NCBI GenBank assembly: GCA_030549335.1
Contig: CM060187.1
Coordinates: 55,138,203 to 55,202,202, forward strand
DNA: 64,000 bases
Source of the DNA: Pontederia crassipes
Lineage: Eukaryota > Streptophyta > Magnoliopsida > Commelinales > Pontederiaceae
Direction of reading: 5' to 3'
The first letter of the stretch is position 1. Every line of letters starts with the position of its first letter. Positions 44,959 to 62,943 of the stretch are shown piece by piece. The notes beneath the pieces were generated by a model, which was given only the letters and a program-made list of their open reading frames with translations, was not told where the DNA came from and ran no database searches. The translations under genes were made by a program, and so were the position numbers.

Positions 44959-47900
44959 ATGGCGACGACGTCGACCGAGAGGTCGTTTCAGGTGTCTCTA
45001 GCTTCCGTCGTGGAGGATGTGCTCAGACAGCACGGGGCCAGGCTGAGCGACATTGATTTCGCCTCTCGGAAGGCTGAGGAAGCAGGTATTGATGGGTTTG
45101 CCGACTCAAAGAACCCTTTTCTTGCCCTCATATAACCGCGCAGCAATCTGCCTTACGGTTTTGGCGGAAGCGTGTGCAGTTGATGTTGTGCATTATGCTT
45201 TTGATTTATACTAGAGTTTTGCGGCATGGGATTTTTTCAGCTTCTTTTGCGATCTTTAGTTCTTCTTGTTGTTATTGATCGCTTGTGAATCGACGCACAG
45301 CGGCGAGGAGGTTCGAGGCCGCCGGATGGCTGCGGAAGGAGGTCGGAGCAGTGGCTGACAGAGATTTGCCGGATAAGCCGTCGGAAGAGGAGTTCAAGTT
45401 GGGGCTGAGGAACGGACTGATCCTTTGCACTGTACTTAACAAGATTCAACCGGGCTCTGTGCCAAAGGTGAGCCTTGAATGATCAATTCTTGCATAATTC
45501 CTTCTGTATCGTTTCTGTGCATTCTTAATTATTTCTGCTGTTGCTTTAGGTGGTTTCCAATCCAGCGGATGCAGTGCTCCACCCAGACTTAGCAGCCCTT
45601 TCAGCCTTCCAGTATTTTGAGAACCTCAGAAATTTTCTGGTGGCTGTGCAGGATCTAGGAATCCCCGCATTTGAGGCATCCGATTTGCAGCAGGTACAGA
45701 TTTGTTAAATTAATGCCATAACAAATTATTCGAATTTTCTCATTCTACATAATTTCACCGTCTTAATTTGATATTTGGATCGTTCTACTGATTGAAAAGC
45801 ACGGCTCATTCAGTTTCCCAGCTAGAATTTTACCAAGTCACCATATCGTATATCAATTTACCCGTAGCAATTGTATACACGCATCCCTCTAAGCTTAATC
45901 TTTTGGATCATTTGATGCTGGATTCAAATTTATGAAAGGCTTCTAACCAAGGTTTTTTTTTCGTTTCTAATTCTTGTTTTTTTTTTGTGCTGTCTTTCAT
46001 TTTGTTGGAGTTCAGGGAGGCAAAAGTGCACTGGTTGTGGACTGTGTCCTTGCTCTCAAATCCTATGCTGAGCGGAAAAGAGCGGGTGGCCATGGCTGCT
46101 GGAAGTATGGTGGAAGCTCAAAGCAAACCAGCATGGGGAAGCCTTTCCTAAGGAAAAATTCAGAGAATTTTAAGACTTCGGTGTCTAGAGCACAATATCT
46201 GAATGAGAATGACATGGGGCAAAATTTGTCTAGAGACTTCCTCTTAATGGAACCCAATGAAAAGGTTTGGACTTAGGGTATTACTTTGGTACATAATTTT
46301 CTGTATTAATGTATTGTGCGTTACAGTTTAGCTAATAGTATCCGACATTTTTAAGGAGACAAATTCACAATCTATAGATGTGCTTATTCGTGAGGTTCTC
46401 TCCGACAGAACGCCAGAAGAAGTTCCACAAGTAATACTTAAGATCATTCCTTTTGTTGATACATTGGATTTTGTTAAGTTTGGAGATGTAATGCTCTGGT
46501 CTGGTATGTTTCCACTTTACAGATTGTTGGATCCTTGCTGAGTAAAGTTATGGAAGAATTCCAACGTCACACCCGAAACCAAAATGAGCCAGTATGCCCT
46601 TTTCTGTTTCCTATATGGTGGATCAAGATAAAATAGATGACAATATTAGGTCTATATATCAGTTTGGATTAAAGACGCGTGCAGAAGTTTAACCTTAATT
46701 GATATTTTTTACCATTATATTGTCTACTGTTTATGGTTTATGGAATCATATTATCTACCGATTGTGAACTTACAAGTACCTTGAAGCAAAGTTTCCATCC
46801 AGTACGATGTTGATTAACAATGTTGATTGTATTGATGGTACTCATGTATTATCTGTTTACCAAATACGACAGGTGAAAACAGCTGCAAGGAGCATTGATG
46901 GCATGTCCGTAGCCAAATCTCAGATTCGAATTTGGCCACAATCTCTAAACTGTGGCATGGAGGTAAGACATTCATGGAGGTAACATTCGAATTAGGCCTT
47001 TATACTAAAGCTGCACCTGAATACACGTTCTGATTCCATTGCCATGTGAAGACGATTGAAGGCAATGACATTGGAATGCTGACAAAAAAACATTACTCAA
47101 AAAAGGACGCGAAGGAAGAGGAGGCACCAAAGGAGAGAACTTCAAAGCATAATATGATTTTTGAGCGACAGCAAAGAGATATTCAGGTACTGATTCATTT
47201 CTTGTGACTTTTTTTTCTTTTCACAGTACCTTTTTCCCATAGGTAACATCTTATAGTAACAATTACATTCTTGATAGGAACTCAAATGTAATATTCAGAC
47301 CACGAAGGCTGACATGCAGTCCATGCAAAGAGAGTACAATGAGGCAATTAGTAAGCTTGGTAAGCTAGAATGACACAATTAAGCAACTGTAAAATCTTAA
47401 ATATTTTCTAGAAAGAAAAAAAGCAAAAACGAACTGAAGACAACTTCGTTGTATTTTTTAATGGTAGGAGGTCATCTACACATCCTTGCTCATTCAGCAT
47501 CCAATTATCACAAAGTTCTCGAGGAAAACAGAAAATTGTACAATCAAGTTCAAGATCTTAAAGGTACAGCACACATCATGTTCTTGAACTGTTTTATTTT
47601 ATTGTAACTGCAAACGTTTTCCCAAGTTTCTTCCCTAATTACAGGAAGCATTAGAGTATATTGCCGAGTGAGACCATTTCTACCAGGACAACTTAGCAGT
47701 AATTGTATTGGTTGTATTGATGATGGAAGCATTACTGTTCTTATGCCATCAAAATATGGAAAAGAAGGTCGTCGATCTTTTAACTTCAACAAAGTGTTTG
47801 GATCATCTGCTTCACAGGGTCAGTATGATGCTCATCTTTACTACACAATACACACTTGTGCCTCTCAATAATAACAATTGGTTCTATTTGGGCTATCTGC

Positions 47901-50900
47901 AGAAGATGTATTCTTGGATACACAACCTTTAATTCGATCCATTCTTGATGGTTACAATGTATGCATATTTGCATACGGCCAAACTGGATCTGGAAAGACA
48001 TATACAATGGTAAGAGTTAGGCCAAACACTTAACTGAGTAACTAGTAGTCTAGTAGCTTCATCCCTTGTGTCCAAACTTCATTGAAATTGGTATTAAAGT
48101 TCTAGTGTTTGATGTTTTAGTTGATCTGAGTTTGATATGTTCTGCAGAGTGGGCCAAAGGATCTTAATGAGCAGACGCAGGGAGTTAATTACCGAGCATT
48201 AAGCGACTTGTTCAAACTTTCTGAAAAAAGGAAGGACGCATTTTCTTATGAAATTTCTGTTCAAATGATTGAAATATATAATGAGCAAGTGCGGGACCTC
48301 CTTGTTAGTGATGGTCTCAGCAAAAGATATCCTTTTTATGCTTTAAGCTACCCCTCTACTTTTTTATACTTAAACTGAAATATACATCTGGTTGTTCTCT
48401 AGAAGTATGTAAACGCAAGTTTCACTTTGGATTGAGTTTCATACTCTAGTTAATCACCATAATTCAACTCTTCTGCAATTAGTATTAATATGTTCCCTTG
48501 ACATGTAAAACATTAGAAATCCGTAATAGTTCTCAGAGAGGAGTTAATGTACCTAATGCAAACTTAGTGCCTGTTACTTCTACATCTGATGTTATCGAAT
48601 TGATGAATATTGGTCAAAAGAACCGTGCTGTGGGTGCTACAGCCTTGAATGATCGTAGCAGCCGTTCTCATAGGTAAGATCTGACTTGAAAGAATTTACT
48701 TTTTCAAATGCCTAGTTATATGTATTTAGTACTGACGAATATTACTTATCATTTGAATGGATTTGTTTCAGTTGTTTGACTGTTCATGTTCAAGGAAGAG
48801 ATAATACTAGTGGAACAGTTCTTCGTGGATGCATGCATCTGGTTGATCTCGCGGGCAGTGAGAGAGTTGATAAATCTGAGGTCACTGGAGAAAGACTTAA
48901 AGAAGCACAGCATATAAACAAGTCACTGTCAGCTTTAGGAGATGTAATAGCCGCCCTTGCTCAGAAGAATTCTCATGTTCCTTATCGGAACAGTAAGCTA
49001 ACACAGTTGCTCCAAGATTCTCTTGGTAAATGCTACACTAGCAAACTCGATGGAAATGAAAAGTGATCTTATTGCTTAATGTTTAAATCTTATTATATCT
49101 CAGGTGGCCAAGCAAAGACATTGATGTTTGTCCATATAAGTCCAGAAATGGATGCTATTGGAGAAACTCTTAGCACATTAAAATTTGCTGAACGGGTTTC
49201 CACTGTAGAGCTTGGTGCTGCTCATGTAAATAAAGAAAATGGAGAGATCAAAGAACTTAAAGAGCAGGTTTTCCATGAAACATCATTTTTGTAATGTCGT
49301 GCTATCATCTCTAATATGTGTGATTTCTCTATTTACTCATTTCTCTTGTGTCTTCCGTATGGTTTAGCGAAATCATTTTTTCGTCTTTCAGATAGCAAGC
49401 CTGAAAGCTGCATTGGCTACTAAAGAGACAGGAGAGGAACAGTTGCAAAATACGACGCCTCCTGATATCAACATGAACGCTACACCGCCAAATCAAAGAA
49501 TACAAATGAATAGTCATGATAGCCTCCGCAGTCAGTCAAACTCTAGGCGACCAATGGAAGATGTTGGAAACATAGCGGTAACCAACGTAAAAAGTGATTT
49601 ATTTTAAGTATAGAAAAAACATCTCCAGTTTTATGGGAATATGCCTTATTAAAGAGTACTTCGTCTACTTTTGTACTTGTGGGTTGTCTAATTACACTTG
49701 GAAGAACCTATACTTGGATATATAAATGCAGTTTCCAGTTTTGATGTCCTTCACATTTAGAATATATAAAATATGAAAAGAAGTTAATATGGTCTGGTCA
49801 TAAGTGACAATTTTCTGTTGTTCTATATAGGTGGCTAACGGAACTCCTACACGGTTAGACAGAACTAACTGCATGAATATTCAGCCGAGAGATGCTAAAG
49901 AGACCACTTCTGGAGATTGGATTGATAAGCTTATGATGAACAAACGTGAGACAGATATCAATAATGATATTTCCATGAGAGATTGGGAAGGAGATGGTCC
50001 AACTACACCCAAACTTTTATGCCGGAGTCATCTTTCTGGAACTCAGGATCATTCAAATGAGCAGTACCATCACAGAATTACTGGTTATTCTGATTATCTT
50101 GATGTCGCCACCAGTGATTCTTCAGAAAATGATATACAATGGCAATTCAAGCTCCAGGACTCTCAGGGTGATTCGAGGATCAAGAAGCCTCAAGTAAAGC
50201 CACCAAAGAGTCCAAACATCAGGTACTGACCTGAGTGCTCTAAATTTCTAGGCTGGGGAAAATAGAATGATTTTAGCTTGTATAATGCTAAGAGAAATTG
50301 AAAGGTGTTATCATCTTCTTACTAATTTATGATAGAAGCATTTCTCTCTACTAGGCTACATCTTTCCTTGAATATCTGGCATATAAAGCTACAATTAAAG
50401 GCTGGAAAGTTGAAGTGAAAAAAAATCTATCGATGCATTTATTTTAGCATACTTTGTTAATAAAAGTTGTGGTCAACTGAAAAATGCAAATCCATTGTTC
50501 TAGAAGTGCTTTCAAGCCAGCACTTTTATTTTATCTGAGCTACGGAGCTACAATTAAAGGATGGATATTTGAACTAAATACCCTTCTGTCAGTACTTCTA
50601 TTTTAGCATATACTAATAAGAGTTGCTATGAAATGAGGCATGAAAATGCACTACCTAGAAGTACTTTTGAGCTCAGATGCTTATAGTGGATCTACAATGT
50701 AACCAATATTAACAACAACAACAAAGCCTTATCCCACTAGGTGGGGTCGGCTAGTAACCAATATTAACATATATAAGAATTGCTATGAAATGAGGCATCA
50801 AAATGCACTACCTAGAAGTACTTTTGAGCTCAGATGCTTATAGTGGATCTACAATGTAACCAGTATTAACTGCAATAGTTCGTCATCCCCTATGATGCAG

Positions 50901-51983
50901 ATTTATTCTGCACAAGTATATTTATCTGGACTATATTCTGAAGTTGGAGTTGTTGTCTGTCCAATCTAATGAATTAAAGGAATGAGTTAAAGTAGTTAAC
51001 TCTATCATTCTGTTTCTTTTTTCCCAAACAAAATATCAGTCGATCATCTGTTGATCAGTTTCATAGTTATTCTTTATCTTTATACCTGGATGACAACTAC
51101 GATTTTTGGTTGTCATACTTTCCTTTCTCAAAAAAAAGCATCAGAGTTATTCTGCACAAGTATATTTATCTGGACTATATTATAAAGTTGGAGTTGTTGT
51201 CTGTCCAATCTAATGAAGTTTCATCGCTGAAAGGAATGAGTTAGAGTAGTTAACTCTATCATTCTGTTTTTTTATTTTCAAAACAAAATATCAGCCGATC
51301 TTCTATTGATGTGTATGCTAATCATTCTGTTGATCAGCATAATACATTGACTTGATCACATCCTTGCCATATTAGTTTTGATGGTGAGCCTGTCATCATC
51401 ATATCTTCTTGATTCTTTGAAAGATAACACCCATGATATATATATATATATATATATATGTATATGTATTAGCCGACCCCACCTAGTGGGATAAGACTTT
51501 GTTGTTGTTGTTGTATATATGTATATGTATATGTATATTTGTAATCTTAAAAATTGTGAGCATTGAGGGCTTGGTTGTAGTGCAACGACACAAGAATACA
51601 ACAAAAAGATAGTTTGTTCATCTATACTATACAATTCAATTACTGTTTTGCTGATAGTAATTATGTTACATAATACATGGATCTCCATATTTAATTTGTG
51701 TCAGAAAGAGTACATTACATGTTTAGCATCATACATCAGATTGAGAAAGTAGCTAGAAGAAGCAAAACTTGATCGTTGATATGTGAACTACTATTTTTTT
51801 GTAAAATCAGCTAATATTTCCGCTTCTCTTTGACTACTCAGGTCCTTGAACAATTTGCACGTTCCATCTCCCTCTGAAAAGATGTCAAATGGGTATAACA
51901 GATCAGGGAAGCAGCCTAACTCCAATAATGCCATTAGAAAACAGACTCTAACTGGCAGAATTCGTGCCACGGATTGCAAATAG
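44959..51983 (+). CDS. KIN-14 kinesin with calponin-homology domain (KCH type)
   Basis: Nineteen coding exons: 44959-45085, 45301-45467, 45550-45693, 46016-46264, 46356-46430, 46523-46591, 46873-46962, 47052-47186, 47278-47359, 47468-47563, 47645-47818, 47903-48009, 48148-48326, 48512-48673, 48772-49025, 49104-49267, 49392-49577, 49831-50222, 51842-51983. All phases close: 997 aa. A CH domain (about 43-165) is followed by a coiled-coil-prone linker, a KIN-14 neck ([12 protein letters not shown] at about 412), then the motor with P-loop [11 protein letters not shown] (495-505), switch I NDRSSRSH (~611) and switch II DLAGSE (644-649). The internal motor after an N-terminal CH domain predicts minus-end-directed movement and actin binding, as known for cotton and rice KCH proteins. 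A long basic Ser/Asn-rich tail follows. Intron 13 is U12-type AT-AC; all others are GT-AG. Confidence 0.95.
48327..48511 (+). other. U12-type AT-AC intron in the kinesin motor
   Basis: The intron begins ATATCCTTTTTATG directly after CTCAGCAAAAG and ends CATGTAAAAC before ATTAGAAATCC. TCCCTTGAC at 48494-48502 is 8/9 to the U12 branch site, with the branch A about 10 nt from the end. Splicing as AT-AC gives [17 protein letters not shown], the conserved KIN-14 sequence, in frame. No GT-AG choice does so. Confidence 0.92.
50612..51300 (+). repeat. Two local duplications in the last kinesin intron
   Basis: Pair 1: about 50622-50713 and 50780-50870 (GCTATGAAATGAGGCAT ... GGATCTACAATGTAACC). Pair 2: about 50898-51020 and 51142-51275 (TCTGCACAAGTATATTTATC ... 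GTCCAATCTAATGAA). Both are close in sequence, so recent. The intron is 1,619 bp. Confidence 0.85.
50714..50753 (-). mobile_element. Short 3'-end SINE copy (Au-like) in the kinesin intron
   Basis: Only the last ~40 bp of the SINE: on the minus strand TAGCCGACCCCACCTAGTGG, GATAAGGC, then TTTGTTGTTGTT. The 15-bp GTAACCAATATTAAC flanks both sides (50699-50713 and 50754-50768), so this is a true 5'-truncated insertion. Confidence 0.85.
51471..51513 (+). mobile_element. Short 3'-end SINE copy (Au-like), opposite orientation
   Basis: Plus strand AGCCGACCCCACCTAGTGGG, then ATAAGACTTTGTTGTTG. Flanked by TATATATGTATATGTAT on both sides (about 51453-51469 and 51514-51530). It begins at the same SINE base as the copy at 50714. 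The flanking (TA)n run at about 51437-51460 makes the duplication less certain here. Confidence 0.8.
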
Positions 51984-61349: not shown

Positions 61350-62943
61350 TCATAATGTGTCATCAAAGATCGTTGAAAGAACAATGCCCTGTACAAATTC
61401 ACTTCTTCGAGTTCTTTCTTTCTGATCCTTCTCAGAGAGAGATGGTTCAAGCCTGAAGAAAAAAATGACCCAATGAACTAGCAAGAAACAGGCAGCTAAT
61501 AAAATATACTTGATGATAAAATATCATATACTAAGAGATAGGTAGGATAAAAGTGGTCGAAACAACAAAACCTCCTAAAAACATTTTGAAAACTTTATAT
61601 GGTGGAAGTTGCTGGTGCCTGGATCACTTCGAAAACATTAAATTCACCTCTGACGAGAACAGTAAAATTCAGAGGAATCATTTTAAGAGACAAAGAAAAA
61701 GGCAACAGCAACAAACATTCCTTTTTAGTACTAAGAGAAGTAGAATCAGAAAACAAGCAACAACAGAAGGCAAAGAAGATTTCCAGTGTATCTTGCATGA
61801 ATATCGATAAAAGCTTCAAGAGAAACAACACAGAATCCACTTGAGAGCAGAACCCTGACAAATCACTCCAAAAAAAACAACACATCCTAATAAAATAAGA
61901 CCTAAATACAAGAACATTTACTTAATGACAAACATTTTAGATCTCGCCCTTCCAAAAATGAATTCACATGTTAAGACGCAGGGGGAAACGTTCAACCGAA
62001 ATGGTTTTTGTCAAGAAAGTTACAACAATCATAGCCAAAGCTTTACAACAAAAAATCATAGTATACATCAAGAGGGCTACCTTAGCATTTGGTCTTATAA
62101 CCTTTTACTATGCCTATCACTCTTGGACATGAGGCAAGAAAAGTATTATTGGTGTTGTTACAAGGTCCAATGCTTGAAATTATTAAGTTGCAAACTACCT
62201 TTTATCCTTTACACGAAATTATGCCAAAGTGACATACTGCATGAGAACTGACAGGACTTTTAAAGACTAGGATATGCCCATCAGTATTACACTTAACCAT
62301 TCATTCTTCAAAAATGTAAGCAAGGATGACAGTGACATTGTACCTCTCGATTAACTTCTCATCTGAGGCCACCTTCACTAGGCTTCCATCATCTAGAGAT
62401 TCTGATTGTATATCTTTAGAAGAATCACCCATAGGCAAAGTGTAAATGAGCGAAGACAGCAATGGATCAGGTGCCGCAGTAGGAGGAATCACAAAAGACC
62501 CTCCAAGAAGTGCTTGCAGATTGCCTTCTCTCAGGTCCTTCCTAAACAAAGAGAGCATATTATGCGATGTAGATGAACCTTTACGGTATCTCCTCCTACG
62601 CTGCATGTGGTGCTAATTAAGGAATTAACATACTAAAGAAGCTACTAAACATAAATCTCCTGTCACTTTCATGGTCCACAAAAGAATAAAGGGAAGAGAA
62701 GTTTTGGGGTACTAAGCTGAGAGGATAAGAAGTACCAGTTTTTCTTACAGTTTCAAAAGTTATGATTTGTAAGTTGCCAAACAAGAAACATAATAACAGA
62801 ATTAATCGGTCCTAAGAAAGGAAATTTGAAAAACAATCACATTCAAAGCTATGACAAAAGGATATTTTAAAAAAGTTTCCATGCTGGGTAGTCATGTGTC
62901 CGACCAAGTCTAACCCCACCCTAGCTGCACATACAGGACAGAC
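61350..62943 (-). CDS. Di19 (dehydration-induced 19) zinc-finger protein, C-terminal part
   Basis: Three exons in view: 62943-62866, 62606-62344, 61452-61350 (stop TGA 61352-61350), 147 residues; earlier exons lie beyond base 64000. The first encodes the second Di19-type C2H2 finger (VCPVCAARVGLDLVGHMTTQH, then GNFFK). The second begins MQRRRRYRKG, a nuclear-localisation-like basic run, followed by NMLSLFRKDLREGNLQALLGG and APDPLLSSLIYTLPMG. The last ends RRSEFVQGIVLSTIFDDTL. These blocks define the Di19 family, nuclear proteins that respond to drought, salt and light and bind DNA in some members. That role is inferred. The second intron is U12-type AT-AC (see separate entry). The third, 62343-61453, is GT-AG. 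Confidence 0.93.
62607..62865 (-). other. U12-type AT-AC intron in the Di19 gene
   Basis: On the minus strand the exon ends AACTTTTTTAAA; the intron starts ATATCCTTTTGTC and ends TTCCTTAATTAGCACCAC before ATGCAGCG. TTCCTTAAT (62624-62616) is 8/9 to the U12 branch site and sits about 10 nt from the end. The join gives GNFFK-MQRRRRYRK, the conserved Di19 sequence. No GT donor is available at that exon end. Confidence 0.92.

Follow-up and report, generated by a model that had tools for sequence, protein, structure and literature searches.

We find that a predicted kinesin-14 (KIN-14) gene of Pontederia crassipes carries, within its motor domain, what is almost certainly a U12-type AT-AC intron that one KIN-14 clade received from its common ancestor. 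The window, a stretch of 64,000 nucleotides, corresponds to C5:55138203-55202202 of a 1.13 Gb genome, and its features are listed in Table 1. A sequence-only reading had proposed such an intron here, and the proposal is upheld by the donor, the branch site, the AC end, a join that restores the motor sequence exactly, Pfam and PDB matches, conservation among paralogues, and the finding of candidate genes for minor-spliceosome RNAs.

Table 1. Features of the window, with positions counted from its first nucleotide.
Feature	Position	Strand	Remarks
KIN-14 gene (predicted)	44959-51983	+	hand-built model; 19 exons, 997 aa; CH domain 66-165, kinesin motor 419-737
Exon 13	48148-48326	+	motor segment SGPKD...GLSK(R); gene model, Pfam, PDB
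Competing GT-AG pair	48289-48536	+	predicted only; in frame; would delete 21 conserved residues
U12-type AT-AC intron (intron 13)	48327-48511	+	185 nt, phase 2; signals, frame, paralogues
U12-type 5' splice site ATATCCTTTT	48327-48336	+	C at +5; of the RTATCCTTT type
Branch site TCCCTTGAC	48494-48502	+	8 of 9 to TTCCTTRAY; branch A 48501
AC 3' splice site	48510-48511	+	read in the sequence; join preserves the frame
Exon 14	48512-48673	+	motor segment (R)LEIRNSSQ...SSRSH; gene model, Pfam, PDB
Di19 exon MQRRRRYRKG... following the intron	62344-62606	-	joined protein matches Di19
U12-type AT-AC intron, Di19-family gene	62607-62865	-	259 nt, phase 0; branch TTCCTTAAT
Di19 exon VCPVCAARVGLDLVGHMTTQHGNFFK preceding the intron	62866-62943	-	joined protein matches Di19

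With the AT-AC join, the KIN-14 model gives a stop-free protein, and its introns comprise 17 with GT-AG ends and the one with AT-AC ends. Pfam identifies in this protein the domains Kinesin (PF00225, 3e-112), Microtub_bd (1.4e-44) and CH (PF00307, 4e-14), the last of which places it with the KCH-type plant subgroup. Its top PDB matches, among the best 60 of 157, are KIFC3, KCBP, KIFC1 and Kar3, all of which we take to be kinesin-14 motors, and in the alignments shown for these the match runs unbroken over the junction of exons 13 and 14. Because of the Pfam matches to the CH and motor domains and the best PDB matches (again the best 60 of 157), KIN-14 with a CH domain is a sound name for the gene. 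In a protein search of the genome, most kinesin copies occur as pairs on adjacent contigs (C5/C6, C15/C16, C11/C12 and others), a pattern like that of a recent tetraploid.

Intron 13 has the edges AAAAG/ATATCCTTTTTA...TGTTCCCTTGACATGTAAAAC/ATTAGA, where slashes mark the splice junctions. The sequence-only reading had described a strict donor and a near-perfect branch site 10 nt from an AC end, and this description is accurate: the donor is ATATCCTTTT, and TCCCTTGAC agrees at eight of nine positions with TTCCTTRAY, the U12 branch-site consensus. The branch A at 48501 lies 10 nt before the last intron base, inside the range of about 9–16 nt taken as the criterion. The intron splits a codon, AG/A, within the motor (SKR/LEIR), and its AT-AC ends preserve the frame, which assigns it to the AT-AC subtype. 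The rarity claimed for it needs a refinement: AT-AC ends are not vanishingly rare among U12 introns, of which they make up 13–26% in four plants according to PMC7367187. For representative transcripts of A. thaliana, PMC5716242 counts 81 AT-AC introns overall.

We enumerated the possible joins with AT-AC, GT-AG or GC-AG ends, taking donors from 48270–48419 and acceptors from 48440–48599. This gave 41 in-frame, stop-free joins, only one of which, 48327/48511, leaves the length of the motor unchanged; the exact restoration of the motor sequence claimed for the join 48326/48512 is thus confirmed among all those tested, and the same enumeration led us to discard a rival annotation that lacks the AT-AC pair. 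If the intron were retained, the gene model would reach a stop after 581 codons of 998. A join shifted by 2 nt yields an identical protein in the window gene and in seven other loci, because AT is repeated, and in the predicted model it is the U12 consensus alone that decides for 48327 over the shifted join.

Ten of the 41 joins have GT-AG ends, and these shorten the motor by 6–25 residues. To score GT-AG sites we used a matrix derived from the 17 introns of this gene that have GT-AG ends. The best-scoring of the in-frame GT-AG pairs, 48289/48536 (donor CAA/GTGCGG, acceptor CTCAG/A), comes close to the gene medians, with 5.8 for the donor (median 6.8) and 5.4 for the acceptor (median 5.1), about like the gene's own introns, and one could imagine that the major spliceosome uses this pair, producing a motor 21 residues shorter in which the AT-AC pair is incidental. 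We consider this highly improbable, since the residues removed are retained in conserved form by the paralogues and by the kinesins in the PDB, and since in the printed sequences the GT-AG pair is found in the window and in L050 but is absent from L051, L053 and L055, while ATATCCTT...AC occurs in 21 of 21 loci. The AT-AC join remains our preferred model. The existence of the GT-AG pair does modify one earlier expectation, namely that gene finders restricted to GT-AG introns would break or shift the junction: mis-modelling is indeed probable, but the frame need not be broken. Such a program would be drawn to 48289/48536, and the 21 residues would be lost silently. A mis-modelled window gene would keep its frame and hence go unnoticed.

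The donor sequence alone is not evidence for a U12 intron, because shuffled sequence would contain ATATCCTTT 1.4 times per window (both strands) and the real window contains it twice. The combination of donor, branch site and AC end is a different matter, for it turned up in one of 120 shuffled strands (both strands of 60 shuffles), whereas each real strand carries it once. This composite signal, together with the conservation among paralogues, leads us to reject chance as the whole explanation. Across the genome, the pattern RTATCCTTT-gap-TTCCTTRAY, which covers very short introns only and proved uninformative, gave 42 matches compared to 34 with a reversed-pattern control.

A protein search of the genome found at least 98 kinesin matches (150 of 218 candidates scored). 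We inspected the window gene and 30 loci from among these matches, 31 in total, and could resolve the junction in 26. No join was obtained in the other five, namely L074, which is without the SSRSH anchor, L076 and L077, which have no exon-13 match, and L078 and L079, in which no join was found. Among the resolved loci, 21 have an AT-AC intron in phase 2 at the homologous codon and five have a GT-AG intron. The AT-AC join was the single best in 13 of the 21, and in eight it was tied with the join shifted by 2 nt and settled by the U12 consensus. ATATCCTT is unchanged in all 21 AT-AC loci, and ATATCCTTT in 17 of them. For 11 representatives, compared without gaps, the mean pairwise identity is 1.00 over bases 1–8 of the intron, and then falls to 0.39 (bases 9–16), 0.31 (17–40) and 0.28 (41–80).

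The branch sites of the 21 loci match TTCCTTRAY at nine of nine positions in six loci, at eight in six, at seven in six and at six in three. Matches of 8–9 positions are thus present in 12 of 21 AT-AC loci, compared to one of the 17 introns with GT-AG ends in the window gene and none of the five GT-AG introns of the KIN-14 loci; in the window gene the best match is eight positions in one GT-AG intron and seven in three. Because donor and branch site are kept while the rest is near random, selection has held the U12 signals as the body of the intron drifted. The conservation in all 21 resolved loci of the clade is the strongest support for intron 13. The sequence-only reading had asked whether the U12 intron is ancestral; within this genome it is ancestral to its KIN-14 clade, as judged from these loci.

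The class of an intron is not defined by its terminal dinucleotides alone, and AT-AC introns of U2 type do exist (PMC2831892). Intron 13 might accordingly be removed by the major spliceosome, as is reported for sodium-channel genes. This strikes us as barely credible: the same paper describes AT-AC U2-type introns with G at +5, whereas here all 21 loci have C at that position and a donor extending to ATATCCTT, and 12 of them have U12 branch sites matching at 8–9 positions. A U12-type intron is the reading that we retain.

Several of the copies have features of their own. L068 (C13:11253500-11257000), which is included among the 21 AT-AC loci, has a broken exon 15 and an intact-looking AT-AC intron with donor ATATCCTTTTT and branch TTCGTTAAC; it is probably a decaying KIN-14 copy and may be a pseudogene. 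L064, L065, L066, L067 and L075 form an AT-AC subgroup, including copies on paired contigs, with changes in SSRSH and DLAGSE, which we take to be the kinesin switch motifs: SSHSH replaces SSRSH, and DVASSE, DLASSD, DLACSE or DLTCSE replaces DLAGSE. These are possibly ATPase-impaired kinesins. Two of them, L065 and L075, lie about 12.8 kb apart on C9 and show no difference in the peptide and the intron signals that were compared; the second copy may stem from duplication on the spot or from a sequence assembled twice. The U12 intron of L050 is 53 nt longer than that of the window gene and holds a ACAACAACAAAGCCTTATCCCACTAGG fragment, which also occurs in the window at about 50716-50750 and 51475-51512 and, reversed, in the Di19 intron of L091. 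The fragment resembles part of a plant SINE, presumably of the Au type.

Candidate genes for the U11, U12 and U6atac snRNAs are present in this genome. There are three matches to U11, all of them over the gathering score, 15 to U6atac (15/15 over the score) and three to U12, one of which is over the score. U4atac had no match in the genome, and the same search was also without a match in the control genomes. The best U12 locus holds GTAAGGAA, all three U11 loci start with TAAAAGGG, and AAAGGAGAGA is contained in all three of the U6atac loci examined; we take these to be the stretches expected to pair with the branch site and the donor. TCCCACAT, which is presumably the plant USE element, is found 63–77 nt upstream in five of the nine snRNA loci examined. 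Two places, one on C11 and one on C12, hold pieces of the CCDC84/CENATAC family. The U11-48K zinc-finger model matched at three places, but it is a short model that also matched one of the 14 control genomes, that of an archaeon.

The mechanism of U12 introns is established, and on that mechanism U11 would pair with CCTTTT of the intron 13 donor, and U12 with the branch site, bulging the A at 48501. U6atac would then displace U11 from the donor, and the AC at 48511 would serve as the acceptor whose use unites the codon AG/A in the motor.

The five GT-AG loci, L069 to L073, have their intron at the same codon and in the same phase 2 (KR/LEI) as the AT-AC clade. The donors are GTATCTCC (L069 and L070), GTAAACAA (L071) and GTAACTGG (L072 and L073), and the best branch match is 4–7 of nine positions in all five, which classes these introns as U2-type. 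In L069 and L070 the donor GTATCTCC keeps T at position +4 and C at position +5, which may be a remnant of an earlier U12 identity. A tree groups the AT-AC loci (100/99) and the GT-AG loci (96/93), and joins both clades (95/93) against ATK-like, KCBP and kinesin-5-like sequences. The first tree was made without L075, whose peptide equals that of L065. A repeat without long rows, from which L068, kinesin-5 and the two human sequences were dropped as well, gave 97/97, 94/94 and 95/90; the trees are built on some 190 columns, and their long branches drew a warning from the program.

Four further loci were fetched as an outgroup check, two ATK-like, one KCBP and one kinesin-5-like. The ATK-like and kinesin-5-like names are our assumption, aided for the former by grouping with human KIFC1. 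None of the four has an intron at the KR/LEI position, where each reads straight through. The introns of the two clades could be independent insertions, with no switch between U12 and U2 type; the intron-free outgroups, which do not fix the ancestral state, and the intron bodies of the two clades, which are not alignable, would be compatible with this. We consider it unlikely, given that codon position and phase are the same in 26 of 26 resolved loci and that the tree joins the two clades. The simplest history would be that of one intron, which was U12-type in the common ancestor and turned U2-type in the sister clade. The intron-free outgroups do not polarise this change, and the U12 to U2 direction is favoured because it is the one described in the literature (PMC2831892, PMC2426677). 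We see about an even chance that the fuller account is correct, in which a U12-type AT-AC intron in one clade was converted to a U2-type GT-AG intron in its sister at the same codon and phase, with the GTATCT of L069 and L070 (T at +4, C at +5) as the trace of a GT-AG U12 intermediate.

A second AT-AC intron of the window lies in a Di19-family gene, where ATATCCTTTT...TTCCTTAATTAGCACCAC separates HGNFFK from MQRRRRYRKG on the minus strand. The protein produced by this join has matches to Di19_C (3.7e-30) and zf-Di19 (1.4e-6). About 12 Di19 loci were listed; the donor ATATCCTTTT occurs in all eight of those that we examined, and an AC end is visible by eye in all five loci whose stretch reaches it. 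In Arabidopsis, Di19-2 is a known U12-intron gene (PMC4892727, PMC5853960, PMC3422263); its splicing is reported as defective in the u11-48k mutant (PMC4892727) and as not significantly altered in the 31k mutant (PMC5853960). The scan recovered this published U12 family, and Di19 is therefore a useful positive control. It resembles KIN-14 in being a whole plant gene family with one U12 intron, and the copy in the window has the same kind of donor as intron 13, although the gene family is different.

We found no printed description of the KIN-14 AT-AC intron in the literature searched on kinesins and U12 introns or the minor spliceosome, PMC6359015 included, and database lists of plant U12 introns may hold the intron. 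The word "kinesin" does not occur in the main text of PMC2831892, PMC2426677, PMC6865273, PMC10639083, PMC4892727, PMC5716242, PMC5853960, PMC3422263 or PMC7367187, whose supplements, like U12DB and ERISdb, may list KIN-14 introns.

Gene prediction restricted to GT-AG introns would probably mis-model the motor in all 21 copies, and KIN-14 motors join the genes to be checked when the minor spliceosome of a plant is impaired. The 21 AT-AC and five GT-AG copies of what is apparently one intron, in one genome, form a series for studying the change from U12 to U2 type. The added value is that this series of paralogues records a likely switch in which the AT-AC subtype took part, a subtype that reportedly converts seldom.

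Intron 13 resembles known U12-type AT-AC introns in its donor ATATCCTTTT, its branch site TCCCTTGAC, the C at +5 and the AC end 10 nt past the branch A. As far as its signals tell, it is a mechanistically ordinary U12 AT-AC intron, without difference in mechanism from those known, and what sets it apart is its position in the KIN-14 motor, which is not described in the literature searched. The nearest parallel to the two clades is provided by the mixed orthologous clusters of U12DB, in which, as in KIN-14, U12-type and U2-type introns occupy one homologous position (PMC2831892). According to that paper, the U2-type members of the mixed clusters are all GT-AG. Among converted clusters of a single subtype in metazoan genomes, 74 of 79 are GT-AG and five AT-AC, against overall cluster numbers of 565 GT-AG and 204 AT-AC, and conversions of AT-AC introns are reported as scarce. 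The KIN-14 series differs from these clusters in that all 21 loci on its U12 side are AT-AC and are plant paralogues, whereas the U12DB clusters are metazoan and mostly GT-AG.
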